64,000 nt of DNA from Lyngbya sp. HA4199-MV5 (lineage in GTDB: Bacteria > Cyanobacteriota > Cyanobacteriia > Leptolyngbyales > Leptolyngbyaceae). The notes below the pieces were generated by a model that saw only the letters and a list, made by a program, of their open reading frames with translations, was not told where the DNA came from and did not search any database. Every line of letters begins with the position of its first letter. Within the stretch, counting starts at the first letter, position 1. The DNA is taken from the NCBI GenBank assembly GCA_019359375.1, contig JAHHHL010000017.1, positions 1-64,000 of the forward strand, in the 5' to 3' direction. The translations under genes and the position numbers were made by a program. Below, one piece after another: positions 9,896 through 12,413 of this stretch.

Positions 9896-10024
9896 TAGGG
9901 GCTGTCATCAATTAATACTACACATTGCTTGCAGCAAGGGTTCCAGCCCCCAGCCTGGTGTGTTGGGACGGGCGTGGCACTGCTGATATTGCAAGGTTTC
10001 GGAGCTAATTGATGACACGCCCTA
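9896..10024 (+). mobile_element. Miniature inverted-repeat element, family 1, copy A
   Basis: 129 bp with ends TAGGGGCTGTCATCAATTA and TAATTGATGACACGCCCTA, which are inverted repeats with two mismatches. It carries no coding capacity. TA at both borders may be a 2-bp target duplication. Copies at 13797, 16276 and 30008 are 128-129 bp, and a 57-bp half copy is at 23766. It lies 116 bp before the histidine kinase start. Confidence 0.85.
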
Positions 10025-10139: not shown

Positions 10140-11834
10140 ATGGTGGATCTGGCGCTGAACTTGCAGCAGCTATGTTTGTTTGTTGTTGAGACTGATTGGC
10201 GCGGTGCCGCTCTGCTGTTGGTACTGAGTGGTGGCGCGATCGCTGGTCTGGGGCTGTTGTCGCTTTTTTTGATGTACCAGCTTCAGCAGCACAAACAAAC
10301 GAGCCAGCAAGTGTTAGATCAGGTTCAGGACGAACTCAAGCGCCAAAACGAGGCTTTGGAGCAGCATTTCCAGCAACGCACCATTGCACTCCAACAACTG
10401 ACCGAACAGCAGCAGGCTCTGGCAGAAGTCGTTAGCAAGATTCGCTCCCCTCTTGAGCTAGACATGATCTTTAAGTTGGCAGCCACCGAGGTGCGTCAAT
10501 TACTCAAGGTTGATCGAGTCGGCATCTTTCGGTTCTACCCCGACTCAGGGTTTGATGATGGTGAATTTGTGTCCGAAGCGGTACTGCCGCCCTATGAGTC
10601 GGTGCTCAAGCGCCCTATCCATGACCACTGCTTTGGCGAACAGTATGCAATTCATTATCAGCATGGGCAAATCCAGGCGGTAGCCGATGTGCTCAACGCT
10701 GGGCTGACCGATTGCCATGTTGCAGTGTTAACTCAGTTTCAAATCAGGGCGAATCTGATTGTGCCGCTTCTTAGAGGTAAAGTGCTGTGGGGGTTATTGT
10801 GTATTCATCAATGTTCTGATCCGCGTGAGTGGCAGGCAGCAGAAATTGAATTTGTTAGCCAAATTGCGACGCAGCTTGATGTCGCGCTCTATCAGGCAGA
10901 ATTACTCAAGGAAACACAGCACAAAACTCAACAGCTAGAGGAAACCTTGCATCAGTTGCAGACCGCGCAGCTTCAGTTGGTGCAATCTGAAAAGATGTCA
11001 TCCCTGGGGCAGCTTGTGGCAGGTGTGGCGCATGAAATCAACAATCCAGTCAATTTCATTTATGGCAACCTGGCTCACGTTGACCACTACACACAAGATT
11101 TACTCGACTTGTTGCAGCTTTATCAAGAGATCTATGTTGTACCGCCAGCAGATGTGCAGGCAAAGATTGACCTAGTTGATCTGGATTTCATTTTGGCAGA
11201 CTTGCCCAGGCTACTGGCATCCATGAAAGTGGGTGCCGATCGCATTCGTGAAATTGTCCTTTCACTGCGGAATTTCTCGCGCTTAGACCAGTTTGAAATG
11301 AAGCCAGTACGTCTGCATGAAGGCATTGACAGTACGCTGATGATTTTACAGCATCGCTTGAAGCCGACCCCATACCAACCTGAGATTGAAGTCATTAAAC
11401 AATACGGCGAGTTGCCGTTGGTGGAATGTTCTGCGGGGCAGTTAAATCAGGTGTTTATGAACCTCTTGTCGAACGCGATCGATGCGCTGCAAGGATTACA
11501 CATCAACCCTGTTGAGACGGCGATCGAGCAGTCAGGAGTGATTACCATTCAAACCCAACGACTTGACTCAGAGCGCGTTCAGATTATGGTGCGCGACAAT
11601 GGACCAGGCATAGCAAGCGCCGCTCAACACAAACTGTTTGACCCGTTTTTCACCACCAAAGCAGTTGGGAAAGGTACTGGTTTGGGGCTTTCCATTAGTT
11701 ATCAAATTGTTGAACGGCATCACGGCACCTTGAGATGTGTGTCTGCACCCAATCAAGGTGCCGTCTTTTATCTTGAAATTCCCATTGCTCAAACAGCGGA
11801 AAAGGCTGACGCTAACGCTACGGCGTTGGGATAA
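10140..11834 (+). CDS. Candidate DXCF-type cyanobacteriochrome histidine kinase
   Basis: 564 aa. Membrane segment at residues about 22-46, coiled coil about 47-100, one GAF domain about 105-255, a second coiled coil, then a histidine kinase core. The H-box is AHEINNPVNF (His298), the N-box NLLSNAIDAL (Asn445), with DNGPGI, FFTTK and GKGTGLGLSIS. The GAF domain has the hallmarks of bilin-binding cyanobacteriochromes: HDHCF (Asp162-Cys164-Phe165, the DXCF motif), DCH (Cys192-His193, canonical chromophore Cys), then RANLIVPL and LWGLLCIHQC. The two cysteines are 28 residues apart, the spacing I recall for TePixJ. It would be a membrane-anchored light-sensing kinase, likely of the blue/green or violet class. 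No response regulator gene is adjacent. Bilin binding is inferred. Confidence 0.85.
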   Translation: MVDLALNLQQLCLFVVETDWRGAALLLVLSGGAIAGLGLLSLFLMYQLQQHKQTSQQVLDQVQDELKRQNEALEQHFQQRTIALQQLTEQQQALAEVVSKIRSPLELDMIFKLAATEVRQLLKVDRVGIFRFYPDSGFDDGEFVSEAVLPPYESVLKRPIHDHCFGEQYAIHYQHGQIQAVADVLNAGLTDCHVAVLTQFQIRANLIVPLLRGKVLWGLLCIHQCSDPREWQAAEIEFVSQIATQLDVALYQAELLKETQHKTQQLEETLHQLQTAQLQLVQSEKMSSLGQLVAGVAHEINNPVNFIYGNLAHVDHYTQDLLDLLQLYQEIYVVPPADVQAKIDLVDLDFILADLPRLLASMKVGADRIREIVLSLRNFSRLDQFEMKPVRLHEGIDSTLMILQHRLKPTPYQPEIEVIKQYGELPLVECSAGQLNQVFMNLLSNAIDALQGLHINPVETAIEQSGVITIQTQRLDSERVQIMVRDNGPGIASAAQHKLFDPFFTTKAVGKGTGLGLSISYQIVERHHGTLRCVSAPNQGAVFYLEIPIAQTAEKADANATALG

Positions 11835-12029: not shown

Positions 12030-12275
12030 CTGATTGACTGACAAATCTTGCTGCGATTACCTGCCCCGCCCTGCACTGAAAGTGCGGGCTAACTGAAGGA
12101 AGTCCTCTATAGGCTTTGCCTTCCCGAAGGGTAGAGGACTGCAAAGGTCTTTCAACCCGTTACCCTTTGGGAAGGCAAAGCCTACAACGAGTCTCATGCG
12201 ATTAGCCCGGATTTTAATCACGGGCGGGTAAGCAACGAAGCCATCAACCTTTCAGGACCTTTGCTAGTCAACCAG
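12030..12275 (+). mobile_element. Miniature inverted-repeat element, family 2, copy 1 (9-bp target duplication)
   Basis: 246 bp. Left end CTGATTGACTGACAAA and right end TTTGCTAGTCAACCAG are imperfect inverted repeats (three mismatches in 16). It is flanked by an exact 9-bp duplication, GTTGGACTC, at 12021-12029 and 12276-12284. The interior is a series of hairpins (GCCCTGCAC/GTGCGGGC, AGTCCTCT/AGAGGACT, CCCG near both ends) with no gene. Compared with the second copy (19508-19710), both loops at 12110-12133 and 12161-12184 hold extra 24-nt segments complementary to each other. Confidence 0.9.
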
Positions 12276-12319
12276 GTTGGACTCACACTTTAGCGTTACT
12301 ACTTTTACCGACAGTCAAA

Positions 12320-12391
<72 letters not shown>

Positions 12392-12413
12392 ATACTCTAA
12401 CAGTGCGCACTCC

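Follow-up and report, generated by a model that had tools for sequence, protein, structure and literature searches.

A candidate membrane-anchored histidine kinase with a single DXCF-type cyanobacteriochrome GAF domain and an additional conserved cysteine in a Lyngbya genome

The gene at positions 10140–11834 (+ strand) of the window, by which we mean the whole 64,000-nucleotide stretch of Lyngbya sp. HA4199-MV5 DNA that was analysed, most probably encodes a membrane-anchored, single-GAF, DXCF-type cyanobacteriochrome histidine kinase; we put the probability of this reading, based on sequence comparisons and structural models, at about 0.88. The open reading frame starts with ATG, and in the 564-aa translation a membrane helix, a coiled coil, a DXCF cyanobacteriochrome GAF domain and a histidine kinase follow one another. 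Pfam matches and orthologs with 64–81% identity over the full length agree with this order, which bears out the original prediction of a reading frame with a membrane helix, a GAF domain and a kinase. The protein is a good but fairly ordinary representative of an already known class, and its single unusual point is a further conserved cysteine, C221. Bilin binding, colours, kinase activity and its regulation, the partner, the topology and the membrane location of the 564-aa protein are what we infer. The source genome comprises 6.9 Mb and is rated 100% complete. All features of the gene given below lie on the + strand.

The cyanobacteriochrome GAF domain extends over residues 106–250 (10455–10889; Pfam PF01590, E 2e-20), and all of its closest solved structures by sequence in a PDB search were cyanobacteriochrome GAFs (best E 6.6e-41). 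In the alignment with TePixJ, C164 of the DXCF motif D162-H163-C164-F165 (10623–10634, within HDHCF), the second cysteine of the class, corresponds to C494, whereas the canonical pair C192-H193 (10713–10718, within DCH) corresponds to C522-H523. D162 and N205 are the equivalents of D492 and N535, and V196 and C221 replace Q526 and I551, respectively. The TePixJ bilin is attached to C522 through its C3(1), and in the blue state its C10 is additionally bonded to C494 (PMC6955287). The two cysteines named in the original prediction thus match C494 and C522 both by sequence and by structural superposition (on 4glq), and occupy bilin-bonding positions rather than positions outside the chromophore pocket. 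Among 47 aligned clade members, C192, D162 and N205 are invariant and H193 is present in at least 90%.

C164 and C192 are separated by exactly 28 residues, the same distance as in TePixJ. For a survey of this spacing we fetched 230 related GAFs; 133 of them contained D-X-C-F, and all but one of these (132/133) carried a Cys exactly 28 residues downstream. The distance is therefore the norm of the class, and we rejected it as a special feature of this protein. Since the PDB matches were all cyanobacteriochromes and the DXCF relatives share the spacing, its occurrence here is not a matter of chance.

An AlphaFold model of residues 89–262, calculated with 47 aligned relatives, reached a mean pLDDT of 89.9. 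In a Foldseek comparison of this model with known structures, cyanobacteriochromes were the best matches (E 1e-21). VIA-align gave a Z of 22.3 and an rmsd of 2.2 over 149 residues with 36% identity for TePixJ 4glq, and Z values of 23–25 for other cyanobacteriochromes. The ranges superimposed on 4glq (15–166 on 436–584) fit the alignment with one three-residue insertion. Phytochrome GAFs reach similar VIA-align scores, so the identification as a cyanobacteriochrome rests on sequence and not on the fold alone. The GAF fold, the canonical Cys with its His, and the Cys of Asp-Xaa-Cys-Phe, three features of the DXCF class, were all found. The pocket differs from that of TePixJ in details (V196 in place of Q526, C221 in place of I551), and the TePixJ photocycle may fail to transfer.

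By analogy with TePixJ, we propose that C192 would attach phycocyanobilin at C3(1) and that, in the dark, C164 would additionally form a bond to C10, which would make this state blue-absorbing; a blue dark state is likely. The bilin may be converted partly or fully into phycoviolobilin. Light would isomerise C15=C16 and the C10 bond would be broken, yielding a form that absorbs at longer wavelengths (green, teal or orange). The change could then be transmitted through a continuous helix leading out of the GAF domain to the dimer helix that bears H298, altering autophosphorylation of H298 and phosphotransfer to a response regulator whose gene lies elsewhere, while the single N-terminal helix, probably N-out/C-in, would anchor the dimer at the membrane. 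As for the pigment, the source genome encodes a heme oxygenase and PcyA (348.8 bits against an NCBIfam cut-off of 206), so that the host has the means to make phycocyanobilin; PebA and PebB are also encoded, each above its NCBIfam cut-off. The genes for PebA, PebB and PcyA share a contig (C85:8344–21280, L171–L173), with hits of the cyanobacteriochrome GAF query close by, at C85:25115–25633; this contig is possibly a pigment and light-sensing region.

The place of the GAF domain among cyanobacteriochromes was examined in a second, unrooted tree of 59 GAFs, which omitted the long GAF rows that had been poorly placed in the first tree. The domain groups with its four orthologs (support 97/98) within a larger DXCF clade of 29 rows (100/96), and this clade together with the XRG group is split from TePixJ and others (99/93). 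Uniting the clade with TePixJ lowered the log-likelihood by 28 (p-AU 0.008; the group had been named after the first tree was seen). The DXCF-type placement, for which the original prediction had proposed such a tree, was therefore upheld as regards the DXCF clade, but a grouping with TePixJ was not. As the tree has no outgroup, a position next to XRG describes the split only; it agrees with the reported origin of XRG from DXCF lineages through loss of the second Cys (PMC11284453). The clade is large, given that relatives of the GAF domain are encoded in at least 531 genome stretches, and it is not uniformly dual-Cys, since some members have DHLF, DRFF or DQHF instead of the DXCF Cys. No characterised, named member of the clade was found, and the matches of a plasmid search remained below 42% identity. 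As a clade that is DXCF by motif yet adjoins the red/green group, it offers a good place to study how red/green sensors originated from two-cysteine sensors.

In the source genome itself, the cyanobacteriochrome GAF query has 37 matches. TePixJ-type DPCF domains are among them; these and the GAF domain described here represent two distinct DXCF lineages within one strain. A protein encoded on one contig (C24:28528–30024; L004, L007 and L008) has three tandem GAFs, two of which are of the DPCF type and the third of which has a Cys at the C221 position and no DXCF Cys.

The position next to XRG and the loss of the DXCF Cys in some members would both suit a sensor in which C192 binds the bilin and no stable dark C164–C10 adduct is formed, that is, a single-Cys red/green or green/teal sensor like its XRG neighbours. 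Formation of phycoviolobilin by some cyanobacteriochromes without a C10 adduct (PMC11284453) speaks for it as well. We nevertheless consider this unlikely, because C164 lies in an intact DXCF motif and is kept by all five orthologs and by no fewer than 90% of the 47 clade members, and because the XRG motif WXDXXL is absent. The sequence here is I160-H161-D162-H163-C164-F165, and in printed pairwise alignments I160 aligns with an Ile of TePixJ and occupies the position of the XRG Trp; pairwise alignments were used for this residue because the corresponding column of the MAFFT table was disturbed by a gap in the XRG rows, which show Ile or other residues in that column even though the pairwise alignments display their WXDXXL Trp. 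A more radical explanation is that the GAF domain has lost light sensing altogether and the membrane kinase responds to another cue (redox or a ligand), with the conserved cysteines serving as thiols. The presence in the same genome of GAF relatives without the canonical Cys, and the two extra conserved thiols C221 and C225, could be read in this way, but the retained C-H pair, D162 and N205, three residues of which do not vary in the aligned clade members, make it extremely improbable. We therefore prefer the two-cysteine, light-sensing reading.

The remaining peculiarity of the GAF domain is C221 (10800–10802), which lies in the clade sequence LWGLLC[IV]HQC (LWGLLCIHQC here) together with another conserved thiol, C225. 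It is invariant in the 47 aligned clade members and nearly invariant overall, with a Gly in clade member L070 as an exception. Elsewhere the position is occupied by Ile (TePixJ I551) or Ala (AnPixJg2 A350 and NpR6012g4), and most other GAFs of the same genome have no Cys there, one of the tandem GAFs (L004) being an exception. The Cys corresponds to position I1076 of PMC11284453, and the equivalent residue position is reported in that paper to face the D ring of the bilin; C221 is thus probably located near the D ring. Members L157, L044, L079 and others have lost the DXCF Cys (DHLF, DRFF, DQHF) and retain C221, which implies that any role of C221 is independent of C164. If C221 were involved in the photocycle, for instance by supplying a third thiol to bond or tune the D ring or the photoproduct, the clade would consist of three-cysteine cyanobacteriochromes; we regard this as a very unlikely, speculative proposal drawn from residue conservation. 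A search of the openly licensed literature for a three-cysteine cyanobacteriochrome returned nothing relevant. The clade lends itself to asking whether colour tuning depends on its extra conserved Cys close to the D ring.

At the N-terminus, a transmembrane helix is predicted at about residues 24–46 (10209–10277), where the mean hydropathy over 19 residues peaks at 2.23 (residues 26–44). Comparable segments occur in all four orthologs (maxima of their N-terminal parts, 1.84–2.26), two of which, the closest, come from same-genus genomes (81% and 76% identity); 33 other single-GAF relatives shorter than 600 aa do not exceed 1.54. The helix is thus confined to the five-member ortholog group. The original prediction had called such a helix less usual: its presence is well supported, but it is unusual within the clade only, because membrane binding or a membrane helix is also documented for UirS, PixJ1 and CcaS (PMC5812497, PMC5121610), and for the same reason we rejected membrane anchoring as a novelty. 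The distribution of charges around the helix (D3, E17, D19 and R21 before it; K52, K67 and R68 after it) suggests an N-out, C-in topology. Between membrane and GAF domain, residues 47–105 (10278–10454) are predicted to form a coiled coil, judged from sequence composition, ortholog conservation and the helical course of a low-confidence full-length model (five sequences, pLDDT 48), which we otherwise set aside because of that low confidence. In L066, the nearest relative beyond these orthologs, the GAF-kinase core is the same (66% identity) and the frame is 893 residues long; a longer N-terminal sensory part was hence probably swapped out to give the short form.

The kinase core, which had been described as intact, contains all five box motifs, namely AHEINNP (H), NLLSNAIDAL (N), DNGPGI (G1), DPFFTT (F) and GTGLGL (G2). 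The HATPase_c catalytic domain at residues 434–550 (11439–11789) was matched with an E of 3.9e-24 in Pfam, whereas the HisKA match, which starts at residue 289 and covers the N-terminal part of the profile only, stayed below threshold (24.9 bits against a cut-off of 26.9). H298 in AHEINNP (11031–11033), invariant in the orthologs, is the predicted phospho-acceptor. The putative signalling helix between it and the GAF domain (10890–11030) belongs to a segment of constant length: counted from the HQC Cys, the phospho-His lies 73 aa away in all 29 clade kinases of the HEINNP type and 78 aa away in all 28 of the HDLRxP type. Constancy of this segment in proteins that range from 421 to 1297 aa fits the expectation of a rigid signalling helix, although common descent may also have contributed. 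In a miniaturised CcaS (TM-GAF-HK), linker length alters the response and in one case reverses it (PMC5121610).

The flanking-gene scan found no response regulator either in the window or beside the four orthologs, in agreement with the original prediction that no partner is adjacent. The scanned neighbours have no connection with two-component signalling and vary among the four orthologs (USP and a lipoprotein; TetR and a NUBPL-type ATPase; DUF2269 and a NUBPL-type ATPase; YacP), and for this reason we rejected gene order as a guide to the partner. Within the scanned set, no neighbour in the window was matched by a gene next to any of the orthologs. With no adjacent regulator and no conserved gene order, the kinase looks like an orphan.

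Among known systems, the blue/green DXCF sensor TePixJ of Thermosynechococcus (PDB 3vv4, 4glq and 6p58) shares with our protein both bilin-bonding cysteines, the equivalents of D492 and N535, and the fold. The GAF domain described here differs from it in belonging to another clade, in having DHCF rather than DPCF and in a three-residue insertion ahead of the DXCF region, and its output is a kinase, whereas that of TePixJ is an MCP domain. UirS/PixA of Synechocystis (Slr1212) is likewise a membrane-bound cyanobacteriochrome histidine kinase, in which phycoviolobilin is doubly linked (PMC5812497). It has three membrane spans, an ethylene-binding domain and the partner UirR, whereas our protein has a single span and no regulator gene next to it; the likeness to UirS is by description, as is that to CcaS. 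CcaS also combines a single N-terminal membrane helix with a GAF domain and a histidine kinase, and its miniaturised form has the same domain order (PMC5121610), but it is a green/red sensor with two PAS domains in nature. Within the clade, soluble single-GAF DXCF kinases are widespread in Nostocales (e.g. L097–L130); their GAF domains are 60–68% identical to the present one and conserve C221 and C225, but they have no membrane helix and are mostly of the SHDLRAP kinase type with a linker of 78. The XRG domains AnPixJg2, NpR6012g4 and Slr1393g3, which form the neighbouring tree group, have WXDXXL and no DXCF Cys, in contrast to the DHCF and the Ile at the Trp position found here. As a compact natural TM-GAF-kinase with the layout of the hand-made miniaturised CcaS, the protein could provide a basis for building an optogenetic kinase controlled by blue light.

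Repeated sequences were observed on both sides of the gene. A 129-bp element at 9896–10024 of the window ends 115 bp before the kinase gene and is bounded by 19-nt terminal inverted repeats (TAGGGGCTGTCATCAATTA / TAATTGATGACACGCCCTA). It belongs to a MITE-like family with about 40 full-length copies of 95–98% identity in the source genome (40 of 342 first-look candidates were scored). Downstream of the gene, at 12079–12215, lies a 66-nt inverted repeat, the arms of which are 71% complementary and separated by 5 nt, and near it, at 12319–12392, is a tRNA-Asn gene.
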